The translations under genes and the position numbers were made by a program. Below, one piece after another: positions 3,189 through 35,028 of a stretch of 61,580 nucleotides of DNA (positions are counted from its first letter, which is position 1; each line of letters opens with the position of its first letter). The stretch spans positions 1 through 61,580 of the forward strand of contig NZ_LYBV02000008.1 in NCBI RefSeq assembly GCF_001660705.2, in the 5' to 3' direction. The DNA comes from Saccharicrinis aurantiacus. GTDB taxonomy: Bacteria; Bacteroidota; Bacteroidia; Bacteroidales; Marinilabiliaceae. The notes under the pieces are model-generated. The model was not told the DNA's origin. It was given only the letters and a program-made list of their open reading frames with translations, and did no database searches.

Positions 3189-3252
3189 CAAATTACTAGA
3201 ATTATCTGATAACAAGGAGGTGATAATTGTTTGGCAAGGAGGGGGTTTTTAT
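3189..3252 (-). promoter_or_regulatory. Promoter of GH2-like gene with C5 tract (proposed HTCS site)
   Basis: Read on the minus strand, ATAAAAACCCCCTCC (C5 at plus 3241-3245) is followed 48 nt later by TTTG (plus 3192-3189) inside GTAATTTG, a -7-like element. The start codon is 30 nt beyond. The same spacing occurs upstream of four other PUL transcription units in this window. The operator role is inference. Confidence 0.5.
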
Positions 3253-3270
3253 GCCTCAGTATTTTTAAAT

Positions 3271-3310
3271 AAAAAACCACCACCTAAATTAATAGATGGT
3301 GGTAAAAAAA
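3271..3310 (-). terminator. Terminator between GH86 and the GH2-like gene
   Basis: ACCACCACCT (3276-3285) pairs with AGATGGTGGT (3294-3303) with one mismatch, flanked by an A run on one side and a T-equivalent run on the other. It ends the GH86 transcript on the minus strand, so the downstream GH2-like gene needs its own promoter. Confidence 0.75.
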
Positions 3311-3323
3311 ACTAAAACTACAC

Positions 3324-5447
3324 TTATTGTAGAATTATCTTATTGGTATAAAATGCCCTTACACCTTTTAATCGAACAATATATAGTCCCTTTGGAAAAT
3401 TAATGTTAGTTAAAGTAAGTTTGGTATCATCATTATTAATAGTTTGACTATAAACGATAGAGCCATTTAATGACAGAATATCTAATTGATTAAAAACCCC
3501 GTTTCTACTCATATTAATATTCAGCGTATTATGTGTGAGTACTGTTGGATATATAGTGACCTTTGATAGTTTATCTTCATCTACTTTAACATTTGATTGC
3601 TCATCTAATAAGTCGACCTGAAGAACTACAGAGCTAATTTGTCCTCCATTATCTGAAAAGTTTATTGTTACAACATTTTCTCCCTCGGCAATTAAATCAA
3701 TTGGCACCGGTATTTCAATCATGCCAAAGAATGTTTCACGAGCTTCTTGGTCGTATCCTGCCCAATTATCAGGTACAGTTACATTGCTTCCGTTTAGCGT
3801 AACGCTTGGTTTTTTTCTTTTATCATGCGTTCTACCAATTGACATTCTGATATAAGCATAACCCCCATTTAAGTTTGTCTCAACATTGTTAAAGGTAAAA
3901 GATTTTTCTCCGTCAATTTGTACTATATGGTTTTCGCAATAGTATTTAGATGTTCTTATATGGTTATCTTGTTCTAGAGTATTGTTGAAATAATATTCCA
4001 AAATAACTGTTTCTCCAGGTAAAAGTATAACATTGGTTGGATTCTCACTTAGTGTTGTTTCTGAATATTCATGAGGTTTAATTGGATCACCTGCCTTTTC
4101 TATCCAGTATATTTTAAGTGATTTTTTCACAACTTGACTAAGGCCTCCAGCGATGTTAAAACCATCGAAATTATCTAAGTAAATATTTTCTTCTTCATCG
4201 CCCAGGTTATTTAGGGCTAATTGAAAACGGTTGCCATCAACTAATGCGTGTGTTTGAATATCAGGATTCATTGTTTTTACCAATGCTCTTTTACCTTCAA
4301 AGTCTTTCCATAAATCGTAAAAGGTAATTTTGGGTGTGTACATCCATTCGGTTGCATTAGTGATTGGCTTACCCATATATTCGTCAGTCGGGCGAAGGGT
4401 AACTGCTCCATATGGTGTATATCCATTATTATTGTAATGCCATTCAGATTTATCAGTGTTAAATGGTACAGATATCAACAGGTCATTCTCTCGGTTTAAG
4501 AAATTAAATAATAGGTGGTTATTTGAACGAACCGATTGTACAGCTTTGCCATCATCCCATCCTGCTGGGTAAATACCACCTTCATCAGTTCCTTTAAAAA
4601 TACCTCCATACTCAGATAATGCGTGTGGTTTAACAGTTCCCCATTTTATCCAGCTGTAAGTTTCGATCAAATCCAAAACTGCCTCGCTATTAGAACCAGA
4701 ACGTTGAACAGGACTGCCTGTTACATTTGTACCATCATAAAGGTGTGTTGCAAAACCATCCATATTTTCACCTGCGATATCCATAAAGAGCTTTTGATTA
4801 TCATCCCAGTGGCTAAAATCAGATTTTTCCATTTCTGGCCATGCTGATGAGTAACCAATTATTTTCATGTTTTTAAGTTCTGGCGTTGCGTGTACAGCTT
4901 TACCCACTTCGCTAAATACTTCTGACATTTGCTCCTTAATGGTTGTTTGTGTTACTCCACTTCCCTCAGGGATAAACTCCCAAGCATGAACGAATGGTTC
5001 ATTCATAGGCTCATAAAACTCAGCAACTGATCCGTTAGAAACTTTATTCATATAGTATTGTGCTGCCCATCTTCCGGCTTCTACTGCATCAATATTATAA
5101 ACGTAAGTTGTTTTAGGGTGTTCTGTTTGAATGTAATTTTTGACTACTTGTCTTTCAATTCCGGGATTTAAATGTGCCTCTTCAGGCGGAAATACACCTG
5201 GATCTGTTTTACTATCTGAGAAAGCTCCCCAAAAGCCACGTGTTTTCATCACATTGTAATCTTCGTAGAACTGATCTAATTCTGTATCCGATTTTGTGGA
5301 GTGTAAATTAAAATATTTGGCTCTATCTATTTCAGAAACATCTCCTAAATGCCTTTGTATCTTGGGAGAGAAAGTTACTTTAGTTTGAGCACTAGCTCCA
5401 TTAACAATTGCTAATAGTAGAGCTCCGCCAAGTAGAATTCTTTTCAT
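3324..5447 (-). CDS. GH86 beta-agarase/beta-porphyranase with type IX sorting domain
   Basis: A 707-residue secreted endo-acting galactanase candidate. Residues 1-20 form a signal peptide ending ASA-Q. The TIM-barrel catalytic domain of the GH86 type (about 25-450) shows the acid/base motif EPMNEPF (E150) and the nucleophile motif LSEYGG (E279). Beta-sandwich domains follow (about 460-620). The last 75 residues are a type A Por/type IX sorting domain (TIYPTVL at the start, FPKGLYIVRL near the end), so the enzyme should be released or anchored outside the cell. GH86 enzymes cut internal beta-1,4 bonds of agarose or porphyran; the sequence alone does not tell me which. No sulfatase or GH117 is seen in the window, so full depolymerisation needs genes elsewhere. 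It is a monocistronic unit with a C5-tract promoter and its own terminator. Confidence 0.88.
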   Translation of the reverse strand: MKRILLGGALLLAIVNGASAQTKVTFSPKIQRHLGDVSEIDRAKYFNLHSTKSDTELDQFYEDYNVMKTRGFWGAFSDSKTDPGVFPPEEAHLNPGIERQVVKNYIQTEHPKTTYVYNIDAVEAGRWAAQYYMNKVSNGSVAEFYEPMNEPFVHAWEFIPEGSGVTQTTIKEQMSEVFSEVGKAVHATPELKNMKIIGYSSAWPEMEKSDFSHWDDNQKLFMDIAGENMDGFATHLYDGTNVTGSPVQRSGSNSEAVLDLIETYSWIKWGTVKPHALSEYGGIFKGTDEGGIYPAGWDDGKAVQSVRSNNHLLFNFLNRENDLLISVPFNTDKSEWHYNNNGYTPYGAVTLRPTDEYMGKPITNATEWMYTPKITFYDLWKDFEGKRALVKTMNPDIQTHALVDGNRFQLALNNLGDEEENIYLDNFDGFNIAGGLSQVVKKSLKIYWIEKAGDPIKPHEYSETTLSENPTNVILLPGETVILEYYFNNTLEQDNHIRTSKYYCENHIVQIDGEKSFTFNNVETNLNGGYAYIRMSIGRTHDKRKKPSVTLNGSNVTVPDNWAGYDQEARETFFGMIEIPVPIDLIAEGENVVTINFSDNGGQISSVVLQVDLLDEQSNVKVDEDKLSKVTIYPTVLTHNTLNINMSRNGVFNQLDILSLNGSIVYSQTINNDDTKLTLTNINFPKGLYIVRLKGVRAFYTNKIILQ

Positions 5448-5499
5448 ATTTATAGAAATTTTAAGTGGTAAGAAATTCGTTAACTATAGATTCTTTTTA

Positions 5500-5562
5500 C
5501 AAAGCAACTTATTATTACACTGAATGGAGAAACAGATAAACGTCTATAAAGGGGGTATTTTT
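5500..5562 (-). promoter_or_regulatory. GH86 promoter with C5 tract (proposed HTCS site)
   Basis: Minus-strand GGAAAAATACCCCCTTTATAG (C5 at plus 5551-5555) is followed after 47 nt by TTTG of TTGCTTTG (plus 5507-5500), one mismatch from the Bacteroidota -7 box TAnnTTTG. The layout matches the other PUL promoters in this window. Confidence 0.5.
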
Positions 5563-5739
5563 CCGTGTGCTAAGTGATGACTATTTATAGGGTTAATTTT
5601 TATCAATAGTGCTCCTAAAGTTTATCATGCCAAAAGTAACTTGAGTTGAAATGAACTTTAAAAAGGCGTTAAATTTTAACATCCATTAAGATTTTGGTTT
5701 TGCTGATGTGATTCTATGGTTAGTTTTTTTCGAAGCTCT

Positions 5740-5758
5740 ATTACGCAGTATACGTAAT
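5740..5758. promoter_or_regulatory. Inverted repeat in the GH86/TonB-receptor intergenic region
   Basis: ATTACG and CGTAAT arms surround a 7-nt centre. It lies in the 503-bp gap between the divergent GH86 and TonB-receptor genes, about 40 bp before the stronger palindrome at 5801. It may be an operator. The rest of the gap (about 5563-5739) shows nothing clear. Confidence 0.25.
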
Positions 5759-5800
5759 TTCTTAACATTATAAAGATCTCTTCTTTAGTGACATTGTATA

Positions 5801-5820
5801 TTAACATAATCTAATGTTAA
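5801..5820. promoter_or_regulatory. 20-bp palindrome over the -33 position of the TonB-receptor promoter
   Basis: TTAACATAATCTAATGTTAA has perfect 7-bp arms around a 6-nt centre. It lies where a -33 element would be relative to the -7 box at 5834. A copy matching at 17 of 20 positions lies before the next gene (8691-8710). It is a likely binding site for a dimeric regulator. Confidence 0.55.
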
Positions 5821-5833
5821 CTGCATATCATCC

Positions 5834-5841
5834 TACTTTTG
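5834..5841 (+). promoter_or_regulatory. -7 promoter element of the TonB receptor gene
   Basis: TACTTTTG matches the Bacteroidota -7 consensus TAnnTTTG exactly. No TTTG -33 box is present 20 nt upstream. The palindrome at 5801-5820 occupies that place, which suggests regulated use of this promoter. Confidence 0.5.
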
Positions 5842-5950
5842 CTAAACTGTCAATTTACATATTCTAACATTTTTAGGAATAATTATGGCATCTATTCGTG
5901 TGAAGATTTAATAAAAATATCAGACAGAATATTACAAACTCAAATTGAAA

Positions 5951-8686
5951 ATGAAAAACAAATTATTGTTATTAACGATACTCTTGGGATGGAGTATTGT
6001 TATGTCGGCCCAAAACGGAATAATAAAAGGTATTATTACCGATAAACAAACGGGTGAAGAATTAGTAGGAGCGGCAGTTGTGATTGATGGCACTACAATT
6101 GGTACAATCACAAATTTTATGGGAGAGTATGAACTCCCTCCATTATCTGATGGTACTTATAATGTAAGAGCACAGTTTATTTCATACGACCCGATATTAA
6201 TTAATAACGTAACTATTAGTAACGGAGAAGTAAAAACAGTTAACATTCAATTATCCGCAGCTACAATGGATATTGATGAAGTACAAGTTGTAGCCAAAGC
6301 AAACAGAGAATCTGAAAACATGCTTCTAATGGAGCAGAAGAATGCTGTTATTGCAGCTCAAGCTATTGGAGCGCAGGAGTTATCTCGAAAAGGTGTTAGT
6401 GATGCCGAAGGTGCTGTTACAAAAATATCAGGGGTTTCGAAGCAAGATGGCGTAAAAAATGTTTTTGTACGTGGTTTAGGAGACAGAACAAATTCAACCA
6501 CCTTAAATGGTTTTCCAATGCCATCAGAAGATCCTAGTTATAAGAATATTGCTCTGGATATGTTTCCTTCAGATATCATTCAAAGCGTTAGTGTAGATAA
6601 AGTTTTCTCTTCAACAACTACAGGGGATGTTGGTGGTGCTAACATTGATATTAAAACCAAAATATTACAAAGCGATCAGGAAGTTGCCATTAGTGTTTCA
6701 GGAGGTGCGAATGCCCAAGTCTTAGACGGTAATTTTATGAAAGCTGATGGAGTGAATAGTTTTGGCTTTGCTAATAATTATAGTGGCCCAACAGGAACAC
6801 ATCCAACGAGCTTCGATTTTCAGAACAATCTTGACCCATCGGCAGTTGATTATCGATTTAATCAAAGTTTAGGAATATCGGCTGGGAAAAAAGTAAAAAT
6901 TAATGATAACGACCTATCAATGTTTATTGCTACCTCTTATAGTTCGTCTTTATCAAATCAAGAAGGTGCACAAAGATCAATGATTAACGATGGTACAGTT
7001 GATAAAGATTTATCATTCGACAAGTATGATATTAATACTAACCATATGGTTATGGGTAACCTTGATTACCAGTGGTTGAATGGAAACAATATCGCATACA
7101 ATATTCTATTAGTACATACCAATAGCCAGTATTTTGCTGAGTTTGAGGGTTACGATAATGATGCGCTTCAGTCAGGAGCTGCACGTGACTCCTTATTACT
7201 TCATCGTCAGCAAGTCAATGATAACCTATTAATGGTGAATCAACTTTATGGTAGCTTTAATTTGACTCATAACTTGAAACTTAATGCAGGACTAGCCTAT
7301 AATTCAATTAATAGTAACGAACCAGATCGTAGAATTAACTTTTTATATCTCGATGATGGACAATATCAGACTTATACCCGAAAAGGTATGAACCAAAGGT
7401 ATTTTTCGGTTTTAAATAGTAGTGATTTAAACATGCGAATGATGTTTGATCTGGATTTAAACGAAAACTCTGATAAATTATCGCAGCTATCTTTCGGATA
7501 CACAAATCGTCTCGTAGCCGACAGTTTTGATGCGGTACAATATGAGATGCGACTACAGAATGTTGAAACTATTGTATTTAACTCTAAAGAGGATGTGTCG
7601 TTTGATTATATATATAATGAACAAAGATTTAATGAGGGTGAAATCTTTCTAGAGCGTATTAATTCCATCTACGATGTTAATAAATATGTTCATTCTGGTC
7701 TTGTTAATGGAGTACATGAGTTTAACTCTAAACTTGTTGGTATGGCAGGAATTAGAGTTGATTACGTTGATATCTTTGTTGATTTCGCAGGTAGTGTTGC
7801 TGATGATGGGACTTTGCACGGACGTGAAACTAATGGTAGTCAAAACTTATTTATACTACCAAGTGCAAACTTAAAGTATAGTATTAACGATAAACATGCT
7901 TTACGATTTGGTGCCAGTAGAACATACACTATGCCTCAATCTAAGGAACTTGCTCCTTTCGAATATATCGGGATGACATTTAAAGAGCGTGGTAATCCAA
8001 ACCTACAGCCTGCTACTAATAATAACCTTGATGCCAAGTGGGATTACTATTTATCAGCAGGAGAGATTATCTCTATAGCAGGTTTTTATAAACACATCCA
8101 AGATCCCATAGCACGATACAGTTCAAATAATGCCGGAGGTTTTCTATTATATGATAACGTTGGAGATATGGCTACAGCAGCAGGTATCGAATTTGAAATG
8201 AAGAAGAACCTTTTGTATAACAACGAAAGCGAAATGGGTAAGTCCCATAAATTAACATGGGGTTTAAATGCATCGTATATATATACCAATGTAAAATTAA
8301 GGGTTGACCCAGGCTCTCAGCCAACAGACCCCAACTCACAGCTTGAAGGCGCTGCCCCTTATATAGTTAATACCGATTTATCATACACATATAAAAAGAA
8401 TAATAGTTCAATTACGGCTACAGCTCTTTTTAACTACTTCAGTGATAGAGTATACTCCATCGGATACGATGGTATGCCAACTTTAATGGAAAAAGGTATT
8501 CCAACATTAGACTTTGCAGTAACAGGAAAAATAAATAAACATATTGGTGTTTCTGTTAAGTTGTTGAATGCCTTGAATCCAGAATTTGAATATTACAGAA
8601 CTATAGAGAATACTGGGCAAAGAATAGAATTAGAGGAGTATAAAAAGGGAAGTTCACTTAGCGTAGGCTTAACATATACTTTTTAG
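5951..8686 (+). CDS. TonB-dependent receptor, substrate unknown
   Basis: A 911-residue outer-membrane transporter. A signal peptide ends MSA-Q. A carboxypeptidase-regulatory-like domain (about residues 20-105) is followed by a plug domain (about 125-230, with VFVRGLGDRTNSTTLNG) and a long beta-barrel ending in aromatic F (SVGLTYTF). It is not a SusC type: the AIGYGTQKK signature seen at 35.4 kb is missing and no SusD follows. The start is the ATG at 5951, where the signal peptide begins; an in-frame TTG two codons earlier is less likely. It pairs with the downstream beta-helix lipoprotein, and both genes carry the same palindrome upstream, so they probably form one uptake system under one regulator. 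I could not deduce the ligand. Confidence 0.9.
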   Translation: MKNKLLLLTILLGWSIVMSAQNGIIKGIITDKQTGEELVGAAVVIDGTTIGTITNFMGEYELPPLSDGTYNVRAQFISYDPILINNVTISNGEVKTVNIQLSAATMDIDEVQVVAKANRESENMLLMEQKNAVIAAQAIGAQELSRKGVSDAEGAVTKISGVSKQDGVKNVFVRGLGDRTNSTTLNGFPMPSEDPSYKNIALDMFPSDIIQSVSVDKVFSSTTTGDVGGANIDIKTKILQSDQEVAISVSGGANAQVLDGNFMKADGVNSFGFANNYSGPTGTHPTSFDFQNNLDPSAVDYRFNQSLGISAGKKVKINDNDLSMFIATSYSSSLSNQEGAQRSMINDGTVDKDLSFDKYDINTNHMVMGNLDYQWLNGNNIAYNILLVHTNSQYFAEFEGYDNDALQSGAARDSLLLHRQQVNDNLLMVNQLYGSFNLTHNLKLNAGLAYNSINSNEPDRRINFLYLDDGQYQTYTRKGMNQRYFSVLNSSDLNMRMMFDLDLNENSDKLSQLSFGYTNRLVADSFDAVQYEMRLQNVETIVFNSKEDVSFDYIYNEQRFNEGEIFLERINSIYDVNKYVHSGLVNGVHEFNSKLVGMAGIRVDYVDIFVDFAGSVADDGTLHGRETNGSQNLFILPSANLKYSINDKHALRFGASRTYTMPQSKELAPFEYIGMTFKERGNPNLQPATNNNLDAKWDYYLSAGEIISIAGFYKHIQDPIARYSSNNAGGFLLYDNVGDMATAAGIEFEMKKNLLYNNESEMGKSHKLTWGLNASYIYTNVKLRVDPGSQPTDPNSQLEGAAPYIVNTDLSYTYKKNNSSITATALFNYFSDRVYSIGYDGMPTLMEKGIPTLDFAVTGKINKHIGVSVKLLNALNPEFEYYRTIENTGQRIELEEYKKGSSLSVGLTYTF

Positions 8687-8690
8687 TAGC

Positions 8691-8710
8691 TTAACATAAT
8701 ATAGTGTTAT
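8691..8710. promoter_or_regulatory. Second copy of the TTAACAT palindrome
   Basis: TTAACATAATATAGTGTTAT matches the 5801-5820 site at 17 of 20 positions and keeps TAACA/TGTTA arms. It starts 4 nt after the receptor stop codon. A -7-like TTTATTTG follows at 8717-8724, so the lipoprotein gene may have its own co-regulated promoter. Confidence 0.5.
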
Positions 8711-8778
8711 TTGACCTTTATTTGCAGAAGAATATTTTAATAAACGATTATAATTTAAATCAAAAACAGTAACAGAAA

Positions 8779-9975: not shown

Positions 9976-9988
9976 ATAATATTGTTTG

Positions 9989-10011
9989 ATAACTTGTTTT
10001 AAACAAGTTAT
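9989..10011. other. Inverted repeat after the lipoprotein gene
   Basis: ATAACTTGTTT and AAACAAGTTAT are perfect 11-bp arms around one base. It is a strong hairpin placed before the main terminator, perhaps protecting the mRNA 3' end or serving as a protein site. Confidence 0.45.
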
Positions 10012-10022
10012 TAAATCTTCAG

Positions 10023-10054
10023 AGAGCAGCCATTTTCCCATGGCTGCTCTTTTT
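10023..10054 (+). terminator. Terminator of the TonB receptor/lipoprotein unit
   Basis: AGAGCAGCCA (10023-10032) pairs perfectly with TGGCTGCTCT (10041-10050) and is followed by TTTT. It ends the plus-strand unit before the convergent permease gene. Confidence 0.9.
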
Positions 10055-10058
10055 AGTT

Positions 10059-11189: not shown

Positions 11190-11424
11190 GTTGTTATTTG
11201 AATTTAGATTTGCTTGGAAAGATAATTATTATGTAGTGACATAAAAAATAAATACTAAGATTGTACGTTAGCTCTAATGTAGTAAATACTAGATAAATGT
11301 TATAAGTTGTAAAAAAATGTTATTTTTGTGAAATTAATTTATAGGCAACTTACTAGCTTTTATTTTATTGATAAATAGTTGAACTAAAACATAAATTAGA
11401 TAGATGAAATATTATGTGAAATTA

Positions 11425-11432
11425 TACTTTTG
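11425..11432 (+). promoter_or_regulatory. -7 promoter element of the 11459 gene
   Basis: TACTTTTG fits TAnnTTTG, 26 nt before the start codon. No clear -33 element was seen. Confidence 0.4.
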
Positions 11433-11458
11433 CATTAATATTCAAAACTAAGCAGATT

Positions 11459-14342: not shown

Positions 14343-14343
14343 C

Positions 14344-15768: not shown

Positions 15769-15915
15769 AATGTGAAATTAGGATGACAAAATTACAACTT
15801 TATTATGGCTTTGAGCATAAAAATGTAGTAATTTGACTTTGGTACAGTTATTGACATCTAGATATTGAGATTATTAGATATTTAATTTGTAACATTATTA
15901 TTAAAAAATATAATT

Positions 15916-16275: not shown

Positions 16276-16290
16276 TTGAAAATTAGTATT

Positions 16291-16734: not shown

Positions 16735-16765
16735 CATTAGAGCTCACAACTTCAATATATAAACG

Positions 16766-21259: not shown

Positions 21260-21266
21260 TATACTG

Positions 21267-21491: not shown

Positions 21492-21720
21492 TTTATTTGT
21501 TTTTATGGAGGCTAAATTAGTAATTGCGTCAATTAATAAATGCTAAGTATAAAAAATAGTTTAGTCTTGGCTACTTTTTTTTGACTTGTATTATACTTTT
21601 TTCCTATTCTTAAAGTTGTATATCATGGTAAGCCATTTTATTGGTATTTTTTAATGTAAAATGTTATACCTTCGCTATACAAGTAAAATCAATACGCACT
21701 TGTAATATCTGTTCATCTCA

Positions 21721-22923: not shown

Positions 22924-23028
22924 TAACTATTAATATCAAATAATCTGTATGTTTTGTGTAAAGGTAATTGTGGCTGTGCTAAGATTTAATATTTTTGCTC
23001 TCAGCTAAATATATAAATTACCCTAAAC

Positions 23029-24930: not shown

Positions 24931-24937
24931 ATATTAA

Positions 24938-24974
24938 AAGAGCTTGATTGAAATTTAAATTCGATCAAGCTCTT
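24938..24974. terminator. Bidirectional terminator
   Basis: AAGAGCTTGAT and ATCAAGCTCTT (11-bp perfect arms) lie between the convergent TPR and HTCS genes. Confidence 0.7.
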
Positions 24975-24980
24975 AATAAT

Positions 24981-27900
24981 TTAGTTTTCCTCTTCTATAT
25001 TTTCATTTGGTTCGTTGCTTTTTGCATATTCAGTTGGCGTTTTATTAAACTGCTTTCTAAAACATTCTCTAAAATATTTTACATCGTTAAAACCAACTTC
25101 ATAAACAATATCAGTTACTGATAGTCGGCCTAACTTTAACAACTGACCTGCACGTTTTAGTCTAATTGAGCGAATAAATACATTAGCCGTCTGTCCTAAT
25201 AATGCTTTTAGTTTCTTATTAAGTATTGATTGGCTCATACCCACTTCATCAGCCAACTGAACTACTGTAAACTCTGGGTTTCCAATATTTTTCTCAACAA
25301 CCTTTAATAATCGCTCTATTAATTTTTCATCAATAGAAGTAAAGGTTACTTCCTCCGGTTGAATCTCAAATGACTTAGAGTACTTATTAATTACCAATCT
25401 TCGTGCCTTTAAAATAGAATTAATTTGTGCATCTAACACTTCAATACTAAATGGTTTTGAAACATAAGCCTCAGCTCCTTCGCCTAGTCCAGTCAGTTTG
25501 TCCTTATCTGTTGTTTTGGCCGTAAGCATAACAATAGGAATATGGCAAAGTAAGGTGTCCTTTTTAATTTCATTCACCATTTCAAAGCCATCCATTTCCG
25601 GCATCATTACGTCACTAACAATAAGGTTAGGTAAATGCTTTTTAGCAGCCTCTAAGCCTTCTATTCCATTAAAGGCCTGAATGCAATTATACTTTTCTTT
25701 AAAAGCATCCATTAAAAGTACTTGTACATCAGGATTATCTTCTACTAGTAAAATGGTTTGTTTACTTGTATCAATTTTGATGTCTTTGTTCTCGTATTGG
25801 TTCGATTCAATTGTATTTACTTCATTAACAATAGGCAATGTGTCATTACGCTCTATATTAGATTCTAAAAGGAAATCATTTTTAGCATAGTGTAACTTTC
25901 CTTTTTTAAGATAAACTGAAAATACAGTGCTTATATCAGCTTCGCTTTCAACTGTAATTCTACCAGAATGCAGGTCTACCAAATTTTTAGCAAAGGCTAA
26001 GCCAATTCCAGTACCAGAAACTTTTGATAATTTATGATTACCCGTTTGATAAAAACGATCGAATAAATAAGGTATTTTATTTTTTTCAATACCTGGGCCA
26101 TTATCTGTTACGTCTATTTTTACCCATTCTTGTCCTTCCAGTTCCACTTCTGATAAAAGGATAGATATTTTTCCTCCAGTTCGGGTAAACTTAAATGCGT
26201 TTGATAGCAGATTAAAAAGCACCTTTTCAATTTTATCGTAATCAAACCAGAGTTCCATTACCTTGTATGAGCTTCTAATTTCAAAGTTGATACCTTTTGA
26301 AGAAGCTACATCTTCAAATGCAGAACTTACATCATTCACTAAATCGCAGATATTACCTCGGCCCACTTCTAAAGGCATTTTACCTTTTTCAAGCTTTCTA
26401 AACTCCATGAGCTGTGTAATTAATCGGTTCATTAGCTGAATGTTTTTCATCATTACAGTGTAATTTTTCTTTCTAAATTCAACTGTACTTGTTTCAACTT
26501 TAGTGATTAATTGTTCTAGTGGAGCCTGAATAAGCGTAAGTGGCGTTCTAAATTCATGCGATATGTTGGTGAAAAACTGAAGTTTTAACTGAACCAATTC
26601 TTCACTTTGTTCCTGTTTAAAGTGTTCCATCATTAGCTTGTTCTTCTGTGTAACGGCAATAACAGAGTATCGTCTGAAGAAGAGTAACATGGCCAATAGC
26701 ACCAATATATATAGTATCATTGCCCAAATGGTTCGCCAAAATGGAGGAATTATTTCTATTTGAATGGAACTAGGAACGGTATTCCAAACACCATCATTAT
26801 TTGTTGCTAAAACCTTCAGTGTATAGGAACCTGATGGAACATTTGTATAAATAGCTTTAGGATTAATACTAGAAGCGTGGTTCCAATTTTCTTCAAACCC
26901 ATCCAGTTTATATTTATATTTTATTTTCTCGGGAGCCACAAAATGCATCCCTGAAAATCCAATGCTAAAGCTATTTTCATTGTATTGAAGATCTAACTGT
27001 TCTTCTGAAGCTAAGGTTTTATTAAGTATGATTCGGCCGTTAATTTTTTCTCCAGGGCCAACGTGTTGGTTCAACACATATAATTCGGTAAACTGTATTG
27101 TTGAAGCATAAGGGTTATCTTTGATGTCTGAAGGATAAAACGAATTGAATCCATTAACACCTCCAAAAAGTAATTCTCCATTTCTGCGTTTGCACGATGC
27201 CGCTTCACTAAACTCAAAACCTTGTAAACCATCAATAACAGAATAGTTTCTGATTTCTTCATTTTCAGGGCTAAAACGTGTAAGGCCATTATTGCTCGAA
27301 ATCCATAAATTCCCGTTATTATCTTCTTCAATTGCTTTAATTACATCATTGGGTAATCCATTTCGTGTAGAATAACGTTTAAATATATAATTGTCATTTG
27401 CCTTATCCACAATAAGCGATAAGCCACCACCCATAGTTCCTACCCAACTTCGTCCCTTACTATCTATGAAGAGCGATAATACATAATTATGCCCCAAGGA
27501 AGTTTCAACATTAGGGTTATATTTAACGTTAATAAACCTAGGTGACGTTTCTGTAATTTGGTTGTGCTGTAAAATACTTAAGCCATTGTCAGTTCCTACT
27601 AAAATGTTTCCTTCGTGATCTTCTGCTACAGCTCTAATTTTGTTGGAAGCCAATTCAGATGCACCTCCATTGTTTGAGAAATAATGAGAAATAACCTCAA
27701 GTTGGTCTGATTTTATATTGTATCGGGTTTTATACAAACCATCACCATAGGTACCTAACCAAATATTACCTTTGCTGTCTGTAAGACTTGAGAATACCGA
27801 ATTTCTCACTAAATCAGGGAAAGGTTTAAATTCGATAGTTCCTTTTTTTGATGCTCTGGCAAGTATTACCTTATGTGGATAGCCAGTACCAACTATAACT

Positions 27901-29189
27901 GCATTATCAAGTTGAGGAATAGTGGTAAAACTATATACAAAGTTTTGACTGGATGCAGTGGTATAAATATCTTTATTAATAAAGCTTTTGGTATAATCTC
28001 CTTTGTTCTTTGCTGGAAGTAAAGAAATACCTCCGCCTTCTGTTCCGAACCATATATTACCAACTTTATCTTCGGTAATATCTCGTACTTTATTATACGC
28101 TAAGCTAGATTTTTGAGTTGTTTGGTAATAGTGATTAAATTTTTTCTCATTTAGGTCTAGTTTATTTAATCCACCACCATTGGTGCCAACCCATAGAAGT
28201 CCTGCATTGTCTTCAAATAAGGTAACAACATTATTTTTAGATAAACTTTTAAGATTATTAAATTCTGATTGAAAGTGTTTTATCGGTTCAAGCTTTATAT
28301 TGATAGGATCCCATTTGTATTGGTATAAGCCAGAAGGGTTTCCTCCAAAATAATAGCCCATTGAGCTTAATAAATGTTTGTTAAAGAAGATATCTGTTAG
28401 GTATCTTGGTTTTATTCCATTTTTAATATCATCGTTAGTAAAATAGCAAGTGCCCAAATAACTTGTAGCTAAATACCCTCCTTCTACTTCTGTAAAGTTC
28501 ATGCAGGTACTAGGAGGTAAAATTTTTATACGTTCAGTATGTAATTCAAACTGTTTATTAAGATGTGCCTGAAATAACCCGCTATTGCTTCCAAACCATA
28601 TTTCACCTTTGGTATCTTCTTTTATAAAGTAAATATTGGTAACGCTTTTAGCTTCACCTTGGCCATCCTTCGAAAAATCAGCTCTAAAATAAACTCCTTT
28701 ATATTCTCCATTTTTGTATGCATTATGATCTATTATACTTAGGCCACGTGCTGTTGGAACCCAAAGTCTATTATCAGAATCGAGATACAACTTTATCACT
28801 TGTTTATCTGTAAAAAAACGCTGGCCATTATGCTCATATGGGAATTGATGAAATTCTTCTTGCTCACGATCAAAGTACCAAATGCCGTCGTCAGAAGTTC
28901 CTATCCAGAAATTGCCTAAGTCATCTTCTACCATGCAATACGGCAAATTACTTCCAATAGGATGTGTCATCGGGGTAGTAAATTGATAAACTTTCATGGT
29001 CAGTCCATCATACCTGTTGAGTCCATCAACAGTACCAAACCACATAAACCCCTTCGAGTCCTGATGTATGAAATTGATATCGTTTTGAGAAAGACCGTGT
29101 TTCGTATTTAGGTATTCAAAATCAGATTGAGCAATTAGAGATAGGGAGAGGATCAACAAAAGTGATAATAGTACTTTACGCATAATCAT
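24981..29189 (-). CDS. Hybrid two-component system regulator (HTCS) of the PUL
   Basis: A 1402-residue one-protein signalling system. A signal peptide (1-20) is followed by two-component-regulator propeller repeats (about 25-700, repeated DxxGxxWxGTxxGL patterns), a Y_Y_Y domain (about 740-800), a membrane helix (about 812-835), the HisKA domain with FFTNISHEFRTPL (His near 875), ATPase with NAFKFTR, DNGPGIE and GTGIGLAF (about 990-1080), a receiver (ILLVEDNPD near 1145, phosphoacceptor Asp in VSDVMMPEM near 1193, Lys in YVSKPF) and an AraC-type DNA-binding domain (about 1300-1390). It should sense an oligosaccharide in the periplasm and activate PUL genes. Its own promoter region shows no C-tract motif, which suggests constitutive expression. 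Confidence 0.95.
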   Translation of the reverse strand: MIMRKVLLSLLLILSLSLIAQSDFEYLNTKHGLSQNDINFIHQDSKGFMWFGTVDGLNRYDGLTMKVYQFTTPMTHPIGSNLPYCMVEDDLGNFWIGTSDDGIWYFDREQEEFHQFPYEHNGQRFFTDKQVIKLYLDSDNRLWVPTARGLSIIDHNAYKNGEYKGVYFRADFSKDGQGEAKSVTNIYFIKEDTKGEIWFGSNSGLFQAHLNKQFELHTERIKILPPSTCMNFTEVEGGYLATSYLGTCYFTNDDIKNGIKPRYLTDIFFNKHLLSSMGYYFGGNPSGLYQYKWDPINIKLEPIKHFQSEFNNLKSLSKNNVVTLFEDNAGLLWVGTNGGGLNKLDLNEKKFNHYYQTTQKSSLAYNKVRDITEDKVGNIWFGTEGGGISLLPAKNKGDYTKSFINKDIYTTASSQNFVYSFTTIPQLDNAVIVGTGYPHKVILARASKKGTIEFKPFPDLVRNSVFSSLTDSKGNIWLGTYGDGLYKTRYNIKSDQLEVISHYFSNNGGASELASNKIRAVAEDHEGNILVGTDNGLSILQHNQITETSPRFINVKYNPNVETSLGHNYVLSLFIDSKGRSWVGTMGGGLSLIVDKANDNYIFKRYSTRNGLPNDVIKAIEEDNNGNLWISSNNGLTRFSPENEEIRNYSVIDGLQGFEFSEAASCKRRNGELLFGGVNGFNSFYPSDIKDNPYASTIQFTELYVLNQHVGPGEKINGRIILNKTLASEEQLDLQYNENSFSIGFSGMHFVAPEKIKYKYKLDGFEENWNHASSINPKAIYTNVPSGSYTLKVLATNNDGVWNTVPSSIQIEIIPPFWRTIWAMILYILVLLAMLLFFRRYSVIAVTQKNKLMMEHFKQEQSEELVQLKLQFFTNISHEFRTPLTLIQAPLEQLITKVETSTVEFRKKNYTVMMKNIQLMNRLITQLMEFRKLEKGKMPLEVGRGNICDLVNDVSSAFEDVASSKGINFEIRSSYKVMELWFDYDKIEKVLFNLLSNAFKFTRTGGKISILLSEVELEGQEWVKIDVTDNGPGIEKNKIPYLFDRFYQTGNHKLSKVSGTGIGLAFAKNLVDLHSGRITVESEADISTVFSVYLKKGKLHYAKNDFLLESNIERNDTLPIVNEVNTIESNQYENKDIKIDTSKQTILLVEDNPDVQVLLMDAFKEKYNCIQAFNGIEGLEAAKKHLPNLIVSDVMMPEMDGFEMVNEIKKDTLLCHIPIVMLTAKTTDKDKLTGLGEGAEAYVSKPFSIEVLDAQINSILKARRLVINKYSKSFEIQPEEVTFTSIDEKLIERLLKVVEKNIGNPEFTVVQLADEVGMSQSILNKKLKALLGQTANVFIRSIRLKRAGQLLKLGRLSVTDIVYEVGFNDVKYFRECFRKQFNKTPTEYAKSNEPNENIEEEN

Positions 29190-29240
29190 TTGTATTGAGT
29201 ATTATTAAGTATGATGTTTCAATATGTTATGTTGAAAGAA

Positions 29241-29273
29241 ATATCCTCGATATCTAAAATGAATCGAGGATAT
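29241..29273 (-). terminator. Hairpin between GH3 and HTCS genes
   Basis: ATATCCTCGAT (29241-29251) and ATCGAGGATAT (29263-29273) are perfect 11-bp arms around an 11-nt loop. On the minus strand a T-rich stretch follows. It probably ends the GH3 transcript before the HTCS gene. Confidence 0.55.
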
Positions 29274-29324
29274 ATTATACATATGTGAGACTAAAAAGTT
29301 ACTCTATTAAAAACATCTTGGTGT

Positions 29325-31511
29325 TTATATTACAATAAACTTTAATTCAACAGGTTTTGAAGCTCCAAGTCTTTCATAATCTTTAACCGGAGATGTAGCG
29401 CCAATTATTAGTGTATATTCACCTTTAGCAATAACTCTTTTCCCTTCTTCAGTATATTGCCCCATTTGTTCGGGTTTAATATCAAATGAAACTTCTGTTT
29501 TACTTCCTTTGCTTAGGTTTATTCTGTCAAATCCAACTAGTTTCTTGTATGGAGCATCATCTCCTGCACCTGGTTGGATTAAATAGGCTTGCACCACTTC
29601 TTCACCATCTCTATCTCCAATATTCTCAATATTACATGATACTGTAATTGCATTACCTCTTTTAATTTTTGTTGCACTAGCAGTGGCATCAGCATATTTA
29701 AATTGCGTATAACTTAAGCCAAAACCAAATGGAAATAATGGGTCTGTTTCCATGTATTTATAGGTACGCCCTTTCATTGAATAGTCTTCGTAAGCTGGCA
29801 GATCATCTAATGTTGATAAGAAAGTTAAAGGTAAACGACCCGAAGGTGATATTTTACCAAAAAGAACATCAGCAACAGCTGTTCCTCCATCCTGACCAGG
29901 ATACCATGCCCATAATATAGCATCGGCCAATTCAGCAACTTCAGGAATCACCATTGGGCTACCTCCTGTCATTACAACAATTACAGGTTTGTTATTGTCC
30001 TTGCGAAGCTTTCTTAAAAAGTTGAGTTGATTTTCTGGTAAGTATGGTTTTATTCTATCTCCTTTAGAGTCTGAAGCAATGGCTTCACCCTCTTCTCCTT
30101 CAATAGCACCGGTAATACCTAAAACTGCAATTATGGCTTCTGAGTCTTTAGCTTCACCTGTTGTCCAGTCAATCGGATTAACATTTTCTCTGTAAGGAAG
30201 ACAACCTTGCTTATAGTTGATAGTGGTTCCAGCGCTTACAGCAGCAGTAATACCTTCAAGCATGTTTACAAGCTTATTACTCATCCCATAATAATTACCT
30301 AGTAACACTTCACTATTGTTAGCTTGTGGGCCTGTAACGTATAGGTTATTAATATTAGGTGATAATGGTAATACATTGTTTTTATTGGTTAAAAGAACAA
30401 TTGACTTACGTGCAGCTTCCAGTGCGATGTCACTATGTTTTTGGCTACAGATTACTTCTTCGCCTACGCTATTGTATGGGTTTGCCTCAATTGGATCAAA
30501 TAAACCTAGTTTAAACTTGGTGCGCAATAAAGAACGTAGTCTTACATCAATCGTATCTTCAGTAACTAAACCTTGCTTGTGTGCACTTAATAGGTTTTTA
30601 TATACACTTCCGCAGTTTAAATCAACCCCGCTATTTATCGCTAGTGCCGCTGATTCTTCAGGTGTTTTAGTTACTTTATGATATAGATGAAAGTCTGAAA
30701 TAGCACCACAGTCGGAAACAATATGCCCTTTAAAGCCCCATTTTTTTCGTAATATATCTTGCAATAAAAAAGGACTACCACAAGCAGGCTCTCCTAACAC
30801 TCTATTGTAGGCACCCATTACAGTTTCAACACTAGCCTCTTTTACTAATGCTTCAAAGGCAGGTAGGTACGTTTCGTATAAATCTTTTTGTGTGGTGAAT
30901 GCATCAAATTCATGACGAAACTCTTCTGGACCTGAGTGTACAGCATAATGTTTTGCACAGGCAGCAGCTTTCAAGTATGTTTCATCATTACCTTGTAATC
31001 CATTCACAAATGCAACTCCTATTCTAGAAGTTAGATATGGATCTTCTCCATATGTTTCTTGTCCACGGCCCCATCTAGGATCTCTGAATATATTTACATT
31101 AGGAGTCCAGAACGTAAGACCAGCATAACGTGATCTATTTTCTTTTTGAATAGCAATATTAAATTTGGCTCTAGCTTCATCAGAGATAGCCGTTGATACT
31201 TCTTCTATTAAGTCAACATCAAAGGTTGCGGCTAAGCCTATTGCCTGAGGAAAGACTGTAGCTCTACCATTGCGAGCCACCCCATGCAAACATTCGTTCC
31301 ACCAATTGTATTCCGGTATATCTAATCGAGGAATTGCTTTACTAACGTCTAATAATTGGGAGGCTTTTTCTTCCAAAGTCATTGCCTCAATTAAAAGGTC
31401 AATACGTTCTTCAGTTGGAAGGTTATGATCTAGCCATTTAAATTCTGTTTCTTGTGCTATTGAAACTTTTGTAACAATAAACAAAGTGAGTATTAGGATT
31501 ACATTTTTCAT
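29325..31511 (-). CDS. GH3 beta-glucosidase/beta-xylosidase family enzyme
   Basis: A 728-residue exported exo-glycosidase with signal peptide ending SIA-Q. The N-terminal barrel contains WWNECLHGVAR, FRDPRWGRGQETYGEDP, KHYAVHSGPE and the nucleophile motif IVSDCGAI (Asp267). The alpha/beta sandwich carries GEEGEA (acid/base candidate region, about 450-460), and a fibronectin III-like domain ends the protein (about 625-715). The ATG at 31511 starts the signal peptide; a TTG six codons upstream is less likely. Sequence features (NECLHGV) resemble the xylosidase/arabinosidase branch of GH3, but the galactan context makes the true substrate uncertain. It is divergent from the GH2 gene and has a C4-tract promoter. 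Confidence 0.92.
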   Translation of the reverse strand: MKNVILILTLFIVTKVSIAQETEFKWLDHNLPTEERIDLLIEAMTLEEKASQLLDVSKAIPRLDIPEYNWWNECLHGVARNGRATVFPQAIGLAATFDVDLIEEVSTAISDEARAKFNIAIQKENRSRYAGLTFWTPNVNIFRDPRWGRGQETYGEDPYLTSRIGVAFVNGLQGNDETYLKAAACAKHYAVHSGPEEFRHEFDAFTTQKDLYETYLPAFEALVKEASVETVMGAYNRVLGEPACGSPFLLQDILRKKWGFKGHIVSDCGAISDFHLYHKVTKTPEESAALAINSGVDLNCGSVYKNLLSAHKQGLVTEDTIDVRLRSLLRTKFKLGLFDPIEANPYNSVGEEVICSQKHSDIALEAARKSIVLLTNKNNVLPLSPNINNLYVTGPQANNSEVLLGNYYGMSNKLVNMLEGITAAVSAGTTINYKQGCLPYRENVNPIDWTTGEAKDSEAIIAVLGITGAIEGEEGEAIASDSKGDRIKPYLPENQLNFLRKLRKDNNKPVIVVMTGGSPMVIPEVAELADAILWAWYPGQDGGTAVADVLFGKISPSGRLPLTFLSTLDDLPAYEDYSMKGRTYKYMETDPLFPFGFGLSYTQFKYADATASATKIKRGNAITVSCNIENIGDRDGEEVVQAYLIQPGAGDDAPYKKLVGFDRINLSKGSKTEVSFDIKPEQMGQYTEEGKRVIAKGEYTLIIGATSPVKDYERLGASKPVELKFIVI

Positions 31512-31553
31512 TAATAAAATATTTAGCAATTAAATTGATTTTAATGTTGGAAT

Positions 31554-31613
31554 CAAATCTACAAAAAAGCAAAGATAATCTCTTGGTTATTTTGATAATA
31601 TGAACAGGGGTAA
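31554..31613 (-). promoter_or_regulatory. GH3 promoter with C4 tract (proposed HTCS site)
   Basis: Minus-strand AATTTACCCCTGTTC (C4 at plus 31607-31610) lies 49 nt before TTTG of TAGATTTG (plus 31561-31554), an exact -7 match. A second C4 tract (plus 31660-31663) lies further upstream. Confidence 0.5.
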
Positions 31614-31706
31614 ATTCTACTACTTCAAAGTGTTTGTATTTGTAATGTGCATATAGTCAGGGGATAATGTTTGTTTGTGATTGAGTGTGTGCTAAACCAT
31701 TAGATT

Positions 31707-31769
31707 AATTATCCCCCCTATTACTATATTATAATTTCATAATCGATTCTGAATTTATCAGTAGTTTTA
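31707..31769 (+). promoter_or_regulatory. GH2 promoter with C6 tract (proposed HTCS site)
   Basis: AATTATCCCCCCTATTAC (C6 at 31714-31719) lies 46 nt before the TTTA of TAGTTTTA (31762-31769), a -7-like box one base from consensus. Confidence 0.5.
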
Positions 31770-31794
31770 CATTAAACTCAAAAATGGAAAAGTA

Positions 31795-34293
31795 ATGCAC
31801 AATAATAAGTATGTAATGAATAAAGTTACAAACACTTTAGTTGGTCTTTTCGTATTAATTATACTCAGTTCGAGTAGTTGTGAAAAAAAAGACTATGAAG
31901 TTGATCAGGATTTTAATTCTGGTTGGGTATTTAATAAAGATGATTTAGAAGGTGTTGAGAATATAGATTTTGACGATTCTAAATGGCGAGAAGTTACCTT
32001 GCCACATGATTGGGCAATTGAAGGACCCTTTAGTAATGAATACAATGCTCGTACTGGCGGATTACCAGTGCATGGTATTGGTTGGTATAGAAAGCATTTT
32101 TCCGTTGAAAAAAAGCATGTAAACAAAATTATTTCAATTGAATTTGATGGTGTAATGAGTAATTCAGAGGTTTGGGTAAATGGTCATCATGTAGGTACCC
32201 GACCAAATGGATACATCGGATTTGAATACGACATCACTAAATATATAATGTTTGGTAAGGATAATGTTATTGCAGTAAAGGCTGCACCTGAGGATTTGGG
32301 CGCAAGGTGGTATACTGGAGCTGGTATTTATAGAAATGTACGTTTAAAAATCAACAATAAGGTACATATCCCACAATATGGAACTTATATAACTACTCCT
32401 AAAATCACAAGTGAGAGTGCAATTGTTAATATAGAGACTTCAGTTGTTAATAATACTAACTCTGAAACTTCAGCCCACCTAGTAACTTGTATTATAGATC
32501 CTAATGGGATAGAGGTTGCTAAATCAACAAAGGATATTATCATCCAAAAAGGAAAAACGGGTATTGCAAGTGTTGACCTTGCTGTTAAAGCGCCAATACT
32601 TTGGGATATTTATACGCCAAACTTATATAAAGCGGTAAGTGAAATAGTAATTAAAGGTCAGATAGCAGACCATTTTGAAACCAACTTTGGAATTAGAGAT
32701 ATTAAGTTTTCTAGAGAGAAAGGGTTTCAGTTAAATGGTAAAACAGTAAAGCTTGAAGGTGTATGTATGCATCACGATCAGGGTGCACTAGGGGCAGCTA
32801 TAAATTATAGGGCAAAAGAACGCCAGATAGAGATAATGAAAAGTATGGGTGTTAATGCCATCCGAACAAGTCATAATCCGCCGTCTCCTGAACTATTGCA
32901 AATTTGTGATAGAATGGGAATAGTTGTTCAGGTTGAAGCTTTCGATGAGTGGAAATTAGGCAAAGTTGAAAACGGCTATCACAAATATTTTGATAGGTGG
33001 CACGAGCGTGATTTAACAGATATGATTAAACGCGATAGAAACCACGCTTGTGTTATTATGTGGAGTATAGGAAACGAAATTTTAGAGCAGAGTAGAAAAG
33101 ATGGTTGGAAATTAACCAAGCATTTAAATGATATTTGCCATAGGGTTGATCCAACGCGCCCAACAACAGCCGGGTTTAATTATTTCCCAGCTCCGTTTAA
33201 AAACAAGTTGGCCAATTATATCGATATTGTTGGAATGAACTATTGGCCTTTAAATTATCAAGAGATTCTCGATGAAAATCCGAATATGATTGTGTATGGT
33301 TCTGAAACTTCATCTCAAACAAGTAGCAGAGGTGTGTATCATCTACCAATTGAACCGATGCACCAACATAGCACAAATCATGTCTCTAGTTATGATGGAA
33401 CAGTTGGGCCTCCTTGGGCATACCCACCAGATGTAGAGTTTGAGCAACAAGAGAAAGTGACTTCTTCTTTGGGCGAGTTTATGTGGACAGGTATAGACTA
33501 TTTGGGAGAACCAACACCATATGGTGGTAGAGATAACTCAACAAATGGATATTGGAATGATGATTGGCCTTCTCGTTCATCTTATTTTGCCCCAGTCGAT
33601 TTAGCTGGTTTTCCCAAGGATAGATATTATTTGTATCAAAGTCAATGGACTGAAGAACCAATGGTGCATGTATTGCCGCATTGGAATTGGGAAGGAAAAG
33701 AAGGAGATATGATCCCTGTTTATTCTTATACAAATTGCGATGAGGTAGAGCTTTTTGTTAATGGTAAATCTATGGGTAAAAAGGTAAAGGGTTTTGATTT
33801 GACTCCTATTCCTGCTGAATTTCACTTTTTCGAGAAAGGAACTTACGAGTCAAAATACCGTTTATCATGGGAAGTGCCTTATCAAGCCGGAAATATTAAG
33901 GTAGTAGCCTACAAAGATGGCAAAGCAGAAGCAACTAAGGTAATTCATACAGCAGGTAAAGCAGATCGTATTGAATTAGAGGTAGATCGTAATGCAATAA
34001 CTGCTGATGGTACTGATTTATCGTTTATAACAGCTAGGATTCTTGATAAAGACGGAAACTTTTGCCCAATGGCTGATAACAGAATTACATTCACCATAGA
34101 AGGTTCTGGTATTTTAGCAGCTACGGATAATGGAGATCAAACTTCTCTTGAATCATTCCAGGCGGATAATAAAAAAGCATTTAACGGTATGTGTTTGGCC
34201 ATAATTAAAGCAACTAATAGTGCAGGAACAATTAATGTGAAAGCATCAGCAAAAGGTATTTCAGGAGCAAGTGTTTCTATTATCACAAAGTAA
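31795..34293 (+). CDS. GH2 beta-galactosidase-type lipoprotein
   Basis: An 832-residue lipoprotein: signal up to SSSSC (Cys29) followed by EKKDYE. Domain order is GH2: jelly roll (about 38-190), Ig-like (about 195-300), TIM barrel (about 305-590), then a DUF4982-like and an invasin/Ig-like C-terminal domain. The catalytic acid/base is E428 in MWSIGNE and the nucleophile E504 in VYGSETSS. It should release terminal beta-linked galactose (or a related sugar) from oligosaccharides. A second ATG at codon 8 (31816) would give an equally good signal and may be the real start. The gene is transcribed divergently from GH3. A terminator ends it before SusC. Confidence 0.92.
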   Translation: MHNNKYVMNKVTNTLVGLFVLIILSSSSCEKKDYEVDQDFNSGWVFNKDDLEGVENIDFDDSKWREVTLPHDWAIEGPFSNEYNARTGGLPVHGIGWYRKHFSVEKKHVNKIISIEFDGVMSNSEVWVNGHHVGTRPNGYIGFEYDITKYIMFGKDNVIAVKAAPEDLGARWYTGAGIYRNVRLKINNKVHIPQYGTYITTPKITSESAIVNIETSVVNNTNSETSAHLVTCIIDPNGIEVAKSTKDIIIQKGKTGIASVDLAVKAPILWDIYTPNLYKAVSEIVIKGQIADHFETNFGIRDIKFSREKGFQLNGKTVKLEGVCMHHDQGALGAAINYRAKERQIEIMKSMGVNAIRTSHNPPSPELLQICDRMGIVVQVEAFDEWKLGKVENGYHKYFDRWHERDLTDMIKRDRNHACVIMWSIGNEILEQSRKDGWKLTKHLNDICHRVDPTRPTTAGFNYFPAPFKNKLANYIDIVGMNYWPLNYQEILDENPNMIVYGSETSSQTSSRGVYHLPIEPMHQHSTNHVSSYDGTVGPPWAYPPDVEFEQQEKVTSSLGEFMWTGIDYLGEPTPYGGRDNSTNGYWNDDWPSRSSYFAPVDLAGFPKDRYYLYQSQWTEEPMVHVLPHWNWEGKEGDMIPVYSYTNCDEVELFVNGKSMGKKVKGFDLTPIPAEFHFFEKGTYESKYRLSWEVPYQAGNIKVVAYKDGKAEATKVIHTAGKADRIELEVDRNAITADGTDLSFITARILDKDGNFCPMADNRITFTIEGSGILAATDNGDQTSLESFQADNKKAFNGMCLAIIKATNSAGTINVKASAKGISGASVSIITK

Positions 34294-34346
34294 TTAGTAT
34301 AGAGTTCTATATACACTTCGTAAGAGTGTTTCTATTTAAATATCTT

Positions 34347-34379
34347 AAAGCATCGTATGGTAACATATGATGCTTTTTT
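34347..34379 (+). terminator. Terminator after the GH2 gene
   Basis: AAAGCATC-G-TATG pairs with CATA-T-GATGCTTT around GTAA and is followed by a T run. In the 810-bp gap that follows, 34380-34925 shows no gene or clear element. Confidence 0.85.
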
Positions 34380-34925
34380 GTTTAATGGATATATCCTATT
34401 CCGTTATTTAAAATATTTTTTATCTGCCAATAAGAGTAGTTATAATTTTATTTTATGCCGTAATAGTTATAATTCAGACAAGCTTGAATTAGTCAGCTTC
34501 CTACAATTTTCCTTCATGCTTTTTCATAACTTGAGCTGATATTAATTGAATAATTATGATGAAAATTCAATGAATAGATAATTAAACTCCACTCCTTTTT
34601 TGAGAGTTTTTTATTCTCATGGTATTCTGTTTGGTTATCGAGTATTGATATTGACTAGCTTATTAAAAAATGGTTTATTGAATTGAATCATAAGTGATCG
34701 AGGTTCAAATTTTTAATACAAATTCTAGTTTTTTTCCTGTACTCATTTCTAAAAACACTTATAGTTAAAAAATGTAAATTACATTTCTCGTATTTTAAAT
34801 GCATGAGGGTTATTGGTAGTTGTTTTTTTTGTAGTTATATTTCGACTTCCATGGTCATTTGCATTATTGAGATTGCTGTTAGTTCAATATTGTAATGATC
34901 TATATATTAATAATTTGTGGTCGAT

Positions 34926-35028
34926 AGGGGGTATAATAAGCCCCCTGTAATTGCTCTCGTGTAAAAAAAATCCCCCGTAATTGATAATACTTTCTAGGAT
35001 ATCATTAAAGGATGTTAATGTAGTTTTG
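34926..35028 (+). promoter_or_regulatory. SusC promoter region with two C5 tracts (proposed HTCS sites)
   Basis: CCCCCTGTAATTG (34941-34953) and CCCCCGTAATTG (34972-34983) form a direct repeat 31 bp apart. The first C5 can also pair with AGGGGG at 34926-34931. The second tract lies 48 nt before TTTG of TAGTTTTG (35021-35028), an exact -7 match. The start codon is 75 nt further on. Confidence 0.55.

Follow-up and report, generated by a model that had tools for sequence, protein, structure and literature searches.

A conserved C-tract at a fixed distance from the -7 box: a predicted HTCS operator at five galactan transcription units of Saccharicrinis aurantiacus

The stretch of DNA considered here, referred to as the window, is one entire contig (C68; NZ_LYBV02000008.1; 61,580 nucleotides (nt)) within the 5.88-Mb genome of Saccharicrinis aurantiacus, and it carries red-algal galactan genes together with a hybrid two-component system (HTCS) regulator. 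Five transcription units in the window share a promoter layout in which a tract of four to six C residues lies 47–49 nt, in gene direction, before a TTT(G/A) at the end of the -7 box. The C tract makes up the stronger member of a direct repeat, whose second half-site was overlooked in a first-pass annotation of this DNA. We put at about three in four the probability that the tract is one half of an operator read by an HTCS, most likely the one encoded at 24981–29189, which would activate SusCD, GH2, GH3, GH86 and, less surely, the GH2-like gene. The first-pass annotation had proposed the layout, had named it an HTCS operator candidate and had inferred a regulon split between a polysaccharide utilisation locus (PUL) and distant genes. 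The layout is real, as the window count, the shuffles and the out-of-sample loci confirm, and the operator candidate is borne out, as a prediction, by orthologous promoters, a peak in the gap distribution, specificity among SusC promoters and an adjoining HTCS ortholog.

The five promoters

The central locus comprises, on the minus strand, the gene for the proposed activator (24981–29189; 1402 aa) and a GH3 gene (29325–31529). On the plus strand it comprises a GH2 gene (31795–34293), whose nearest NCBIfam models are the GalB/GalA beta-galactosidases, below their cut-offs, and the SusC, SusD and SusE-like genes (35104–41729), the third of which matches no family and takes its name from its place in the row. 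Two minus-strand genes lie 20–30 kb from this locus: a porphyranase-like GH86 gene (3324–5447) with a type IX secretion system (T9SS) sorting tail, and a GH2-like gene (220–3159). These assignments come from Pfam and, for the Sus genes, from family scans as well. The best solved-structure match of the GH86 protein, in a comparison of the enzyme alone, is the GH86A beta-porphyranase 4aw7 (E 3.7e-130), which we take to be from Bacteroides plebeius.

The tracts, each regarded as an upstream half-site, are C5 at 34972–34976 (plus strand) before SusC, C4 at 31607–31610 (minus) before GH3, C6 at 31713–31718 (plus) before GH2, C5 at 5551–5555 (minus) before GH86 and C5 at 3241–3245 (minus) before the GH2-like gene. 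Measured from the 3' end of the tract, the respective gaps to TTT(G/A) are 48, 49, 47, 47 and 48. Four tract positions and four gaps are as first annotated; the GH2 tract is displaced by one nucleotide from the 31714–31719 given previously, and its gap is 47, not 46. Pattern searching finds the full TAnnTTTG box in the window at SusC (TAGTTTTG, 35021–35028, plus) and GH3 (TAGATTTG, 31554–31561, minus) only. The box is imperfect at GH2 (TAGTTTTA, 31762–31769, plus, read from the sequence) and, as placed by site alignment, at GH86 (TTGCTTTG, 5500–5507, minus) and the GH2-like gene (GTAATTTG, 3189–3196, minus).

It had been stated that intergenic DNA of the window has no other run of five or more G or C. 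This holds outside open reading frames (ORFs) of at least 100 aa, except at the SusC promoter itself, where G5 at 34927–34931 and C5 at 34941–34945 are possible additional half-sites. The 810-nt GH2–SusC intergenic stretch (34294–35103) carries three C/G tracts, and an additional C4 tract (31660–31663, minus) is found upstream of that of GH3. Two tracts upstream of SusC form a direct repeat of 12–13 bp (CCCCCTGTAATTG / CCCCCGTAATTG), about 30 bp apart. In two related genomes, G046 and G019, a further tract likewise lies more distally, at differing distances. Since the spacing of ~30–31 bp is kept in neither, the repeat was rejected as the operator unit and its members are treated as extra tracts.

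Within the window, the rule of C4 or more followed by TTT[GA] at 46–49 picks out exactly these five of 27 promoter regions of at least 90 nt. Dinucleotide shuffles of the 27 regions gave a mean of 0.28 and a maximum of 3, with none of 1000 reaching five. When the tracts were fixed and the downstream DNA alone was shuffled, the mean was 0.58 of 5 and the maximum again 3. The box and spacing were picked after the data had been seen, so out-of-sample tests in relatives weigh more.

Conservation in related genomes

Same-family comparisons used the genomes G047, G046 and G019, plus G043 for GH86; NCBI places G019 in the family Marinilabiliaceae, order Marinilabiliales, and the source genome is assigned to the same family. 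The GH2, GH3 and HTCS genes stay near one another in G047, G046 and G019. The G046 GH2 gene is present as two overlapping ORFs (L044 10991–12433 and 12378–13481) and is possibly decaying.

The tract is found in 13 of 15 comparable promoters, and in nine of the 15 it is followed by TTT(G/A) at 46–50. At SusC the gap of 48 is kept in G046 and G019 (the G044 SusC promoter, L077, lay outside the comparison), and at GH3 the tract is kept with gaps of 50, 49 and 49 in G047, G046 and G019, respectively. The GH2 tract is partly conserved, being kept in G047 with a gap of 46. GH86 relatives were counted at 49% identity or above, which gives four; lower ones were uncounted since most of those matches begin inside the gene. 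Tract and gap are kept in G019 (48), G047 (48) and a second G019 copy (49). Orthologs of the GH2-like gene in G047, G046 and G019 all have a C5–C6 tract, 72–84 nt before the gene. In G019 the GH86 and GH2-like genes adjoin each other on the contig of the HTCS locus, some 60 kb from it.

Further genes around these loci carry the layout. A G047 SusC-type gene next to the HTCS, 26% identical to that of the window and outside the 15, has C6 with TAGATTTG at 48. Each of two GH29-family genes beside the locus, in G046 and G019, carries the tract; at a gap of 47 one has TATATTTG and the other TACTTTC. In G043, where the HTCS is 48% identical, the neighbouring sulfatase gene has C5 with a TAGTATTTTTG-type box at 49.

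Outside the family, a GH3-alignment scan of genome contigs kept 80 loci, 14 of which were examined. Two Labilibaculum loci (L189 and L191; family Marinifilaceae) carry GH2, GH3 and HTCS (56–58% identical), a GH29-family gene and SusC. Seven of their eight units have C5–C6 with an exact TAnnTTTG at 47–50; in both loci the SusC gap is 48 and the GH3 tract is present with a gap of 49–50, and in L191 the GH2 tract is kept at 47. Comparison with orthologous promoters, as suggested in the first-pass annotation, finds the layout conserved both in the same family and in another. A Marinifilum locus, L190 (GH3 72% identical), shows no HTCS match within the 18.9 kb retrieved, and none of its promoter regions of at least 90 nt contains a C4+ tract; its GH3 lies about 50 nt after another gene, so that its own promoter was outside the test. 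In the eleven more distant GH3 loci (L192–L196 and L198–L203) C4+ with TAnnTTTG at 46–50 occurs in none, and the looser TTT(G/A) layout in two; L202 has C5 before GH3 and no box. Four of the eleven have a distant HTCS of 38–43% identity.

Gap specificity and genome-wide counts

The preference for one distance was examined in 135 promoter regions from the window and 13 HTCS neighbourhoods, in 5-nt bins from 26 to 70. C4+ with TAnnTTTG occurs 13 times at 46–50 versus 0–1 times in every other bin (mirror control 0), the window contributing two of the 13. With the looser TTT(G/A) there are 25 at 46–50, five of them from the window, versus 1–13 in other bins (mirror 7). Selected around HTCS orthologs and paralogs, these regions give the shape of the rule, not a genome-wide rate.

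Genome-wide, C4...TAnnTTTG has 85 matches versus 70 for the reversed control, the C5 form 24 versus 14 and the CCCCK form 31 versus 14. The signal comes from promoter placement, and the bare pattern is not rare. The searching used patterns and a two-part weight matrix over retrieved DNA rather than a full profile scan. The matrix is uncalibrated, its left-one-family-out score falling to 4.1 at one site, and matches as strong as the weak sites occur in coding DNA too (window 3866, score 17.9). Outside the window there are 74 distinct C4...TAnnTTTG matches, with placement established for 55.

Many equal matches at unrelated promoters had been named as the result that would speak against a regulon. 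The bare pattern does lie near its control in most genomes. Elsewhere in the source genome a further 38 SusC promoters were compared, and none has TAnnTTTG at 46–50 after C4+. Any C4+ is found in eight of these, and C4+ with TTT[GA] at 46–50 in two. A general SusC-promoter or polymerase element was rejected on the count of 0/38.

A second half-site in place of the -33 box

When 16 training sites are aligned on the last C of the tract, a C is found at +22 in ten, a feature noticed after the fact. It recurs in independent sets, in six of seven Labilibaculum sites and in seven of twelve promoter-placed matches of the source genome. ACC within +18 to +25 is present in 6/12 of the latter versus 5/60 other pattern matches, and CC within +19 to +25 in 7/12 versus 15/60 (one-sided Fisher 0.029). 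The 60 include 19 unplaced matches, and two overlapping promoter-placed matches on the small contig C57 were dropped. Tandem half-sites about two helical turns apart, as expected of an HTCS operator, are thus found in three site sets.

In the window, site alignment gives candidate downstream half-sites at GH3 (ACC, +20 to +22; 31585–31587, minus), GH86 (CTCC, +22 to +25; 5526–5529, minus) and the GH2-like gene (CACCTCC, 3216–3222, minus). Plain tandem repeats occur elsewhere in the genome. At C67:406464–406520, before a zinc dehydrogenase near another HTCS, CCCCC...ACCCC are 22 bp apart with TAnnTTTG at 48 nt; at C28:235539–235595, before a sortilin/BNR-type protein, CCCCTATTA occurs twice, 23 bp apart, with TAnnTTTG at 49 nt.

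Promoters read by the Bacteroidota sigma factor have the consensus -33 TTG / -7 TAnnTTTG. The -7 element is exact at SusC and GH3 in the window and in the Labilibaculum units described above, and imperfect at GH2, GH86 and the GH2-like gene. The weaker CC about 22 bp after the tract occupies the position expected for the -33 box. A TTG at the -33 distance (spacer 19–21) is seen at one of the 16 sites, which is about chance and fits a promoter that depends on an activator.

The regulator

By Pfam the protein encoded at 24981–29189 has a Reg_prop/Y_Y_Y periplasmic sensor, HisKA, HATPase_c, a receiver and a C-terminal AraC-type helix-turn-helix (HTH), and so unites sensor, kinase, receiver and HTH in one protein, as the HTCS class demands. 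A CHIP motif is present in its receiver and in those of the seven orthologs examined. An S/CHIP receiver motif is reported to be linked to DNA binding that is suppressed until phosphorylation (PMC11253607).

In five HTCS orthologs beside conserved sites the HTH is 83–90% identical, versus 49–53% in the sensor part. A well-conserved HTH with a diverged sensor is what an unchanging operator would predict, although the HTH conservation may have other causes, as for DNA-binding domains generally. Of the genes that match window proteins, the regulator next to GH3 is the HTCS, in both Labilibaculum loci as in G047, G046 and G019. Exceptions aside, the site is conserved before orthologous PUL genes that are accompanied by an orthologous HTCS.

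Proposed mechanism and alternatives

In the mechanism proposed, an agar or porphyran oligosaccharide would reach the periplasmic sensor, and the ensuing phosphorylation would free the AraC-type DNA-binding domain. Two protomers would bind the direct repeat two helical turns apart, at CCCC(C) and at the weaker CC, respectively about 58–61 nt and 36 nt ahead of the start; these positions assume the usual geometry, with a start a few bases past the -7 box. The downstream protomer, at the -33 position, would recruit RNA polymerase to a promoter with a -7 box and without a -33 box; on this proposal the fixed spacing would be forced by the replacement of the -33 box. Binding, phosphorylation, occupancy of both halves, the inducer and activation are thus steps that we infer. 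The targets would be SusCD, GH2, GH3, GH86 and, probably though less surely, the GH2-like gene, with a GH29-family gene and a sulfatase added in relatives.

A number of observations weigh against this proposal. There is no C4 tract at the G046 GH2 promoter and no tract at the G043 GH86 relative, the gene divergent from GH3 in G019 has a tract with no box at the spacing, and GH2 of L189, the sole Labilibaculum unit to fail, has just a C4 at the wrong place. The second half-site is weak in the window, where it is visible at the GH2-like gene, GH86 and GH3, and not at GH2 or SusC. The GH2-like orthologs keep the 46–50 spacing in none of three cases: TTT(G/A) lies at 45/58 in G047, no such motif is near in G046, and it lies at 53 in G019. 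Of the split regulon inferred earlier, the tie to GH86 is supported, three of four relatives keeping both tract and spacing, whereas that to the GH2-like gene is weaker. The CCCCK form does not exceed its reversed control clearly in relatives (G046 32/33, G047 25/20, G019 19/19). Of the twelve promoter-placed matches in the rest of the genome, several stand before genes that have no visible galactan link (HlyD-type, winged-helix and others). Finally, the exact-box layout is found beside paralogous HTCSs on C67 of the same genome (L053 site 16468 = C67:406464) and on contig C4 of G047 (14422), and the looser layout beside another on the source genome's C19 (10119, minus).

These last layouts raise the possibility that the cognate regulator of the far GH86 and GH2-like genes is a paralog. 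The operator would then be a genuine HTCS-type site, read at clade level by several paralogous HTCSs, an account that we hold to be a serious contender at somewhat under even odds; it overlaps with activation of all five units by the local HTCS, and the odds of the two do not sum to one. The HTHs of the C19 and C67 HTCSs are 60–61% identical to the local one, and the twelve promoter-placed matches, ten of whose proteins were scanned, include sites before two sulfatases, a GH43, an HTCS-type sensor, an AraC regulator and others. Against this, the sites closest to the local HTCS (GH3, SusC and partly GH2) are conserved together with it in relatives that keep the locus, even in another family, and the G019 GH86/GH2-like pair lies on the HTCS-locus contig, albeit at a distance. 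We suggest, tentatively and with rather less than even confidence, that a Marinilabiliales HTCS clade shares one grammar: a C4–C7 tract with a weak CC 22 bp after it, absence of a -33 box, and TAnnTTTG 46–50 nt past the tract.

It seems improbable to us that the HTCS acts elsewhere and that the tract instead binds some other, unlinked regulator or serves RNA polymerase directly as an upstream promoter element. Several HTCS-linked SusC promoters lack a C4 tract, and neighbour genes in the relatives were compared with window proteins only, few being scanned, which leaves room for another shared regulator. The absence of the TAnnTTTG layout from the 38 other SusC promoters, the presence of the HTCS beside GH3 in the five loci named above and the resemblance of the 22-bp tandem signal to HTCS sites (PMC3878776) argue the other way. 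SusR-type sites, 67 or 77 bp apart in that study, were rejected because their spacing does not match. Even less credible is a chance alignment picked post hoc. In its favour, A/T-rich DNA is fairly full of C runs and TTT(G/A), the choice of box and spacing was made by eye, the -7 box is imperfect at three of the five promoters and the bare counts lie near control in most genomes; chance was nevertheless rejected on the shuffles, on the out-of-sample loci, with an exact box in seven of eight Labilibaculum units, and on the gap-specific peak.

Relation to known systems

In B. thetaiotaomicron, HTCSs are described as the commonest kind of PUL regulator (PMC6874557). Operators predicted for them are direct repeats with a mean of 21 bp between tandem sites, described by 16 motifs (Ravcheev et al. 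2013, PMC3878776); the HTCS operator motifs that we found described there are predictions for gut Bacteroides. A number of parallels can be drawn: in both cases the HTH is of AraC type, the site is a direct repeat (21 bp there, ~22 here) and sites lie upstream of susC-like or enzyme operons, and some of the B. thetaiotaomicron regulons reach distant genes or operons. By contrast, the sites described here have a core of 4–7 C and an unequal, weaker second half, the comparison being with the motifs as described rather than with their logos. This work further differs in examining the -7 spacing, in the order concerned, Marinilabiliales, and in the red-algal galactan genes. The carrageenan regulon of Zobellia galactanivorans likewise divides its red-algal galactan genes among a PUL and distal sites, with joint induction of the two (Ficko-Blean et al. 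2017, PMC5698469); it differs in employing a separate AraC-family regulator, CgrA, and no HTCS, and its distal genes include a susCD-like pair.

Tandem HTCS operators and split galactan regulons are already known (PMC3878776; PMC5698469). No description of a C-tract operator was met in the literature searched; the logos and supplements of PMC3878776 were outside the comparison, so that the novelty of the letters themselves is not established. What is gained for marine Marinilabiliales is a candidate operator that is sharply defined, conserved and set at a constant spacing before the -7 box, one which offers a reason for the missing -33 box and links a porphyranase gene 20–30 kb off to the transport locus. 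If the proposal is true, algal-galactan regulons could be called from sequence; if the clade grammar is true, genes far from the PUL would be included, and cross-talk between paralogous sensors on shared sites would become possible.

Neighbouring features

A sulfatase gene with a C5-tract promoter (C24:205060, L152) lies near a GH2-like paralog (C24:211313) and a GH86 relative (C24:216533) elsewhere in the genome; these genes could be part of the regulon described here or of a paralogous one. Between the GH86 and GH2-like genes of the window is a terminator-like hairpin at 3303–3276 (minus strand), which would fit a separate promoter for the GH2-like gene; the stretch holds two such hairpins, and shuffles average 2.0. 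A second hairpin, TATCCTCGAT...ATCGAGGATA followed by T-rich DNA, was read by eye on the minus strand of the GH3–HTCS gap (29190–29324). It is a possible terminator or attenuator and suggests that the HTCS gene is not simply a member of a GH3 operon. Beyond the galactan locus are two tandem genes for YitT-family membrane proteins (42679–44419), and a tRNA-Met (61470–61543) lies close to the right end of the contig.

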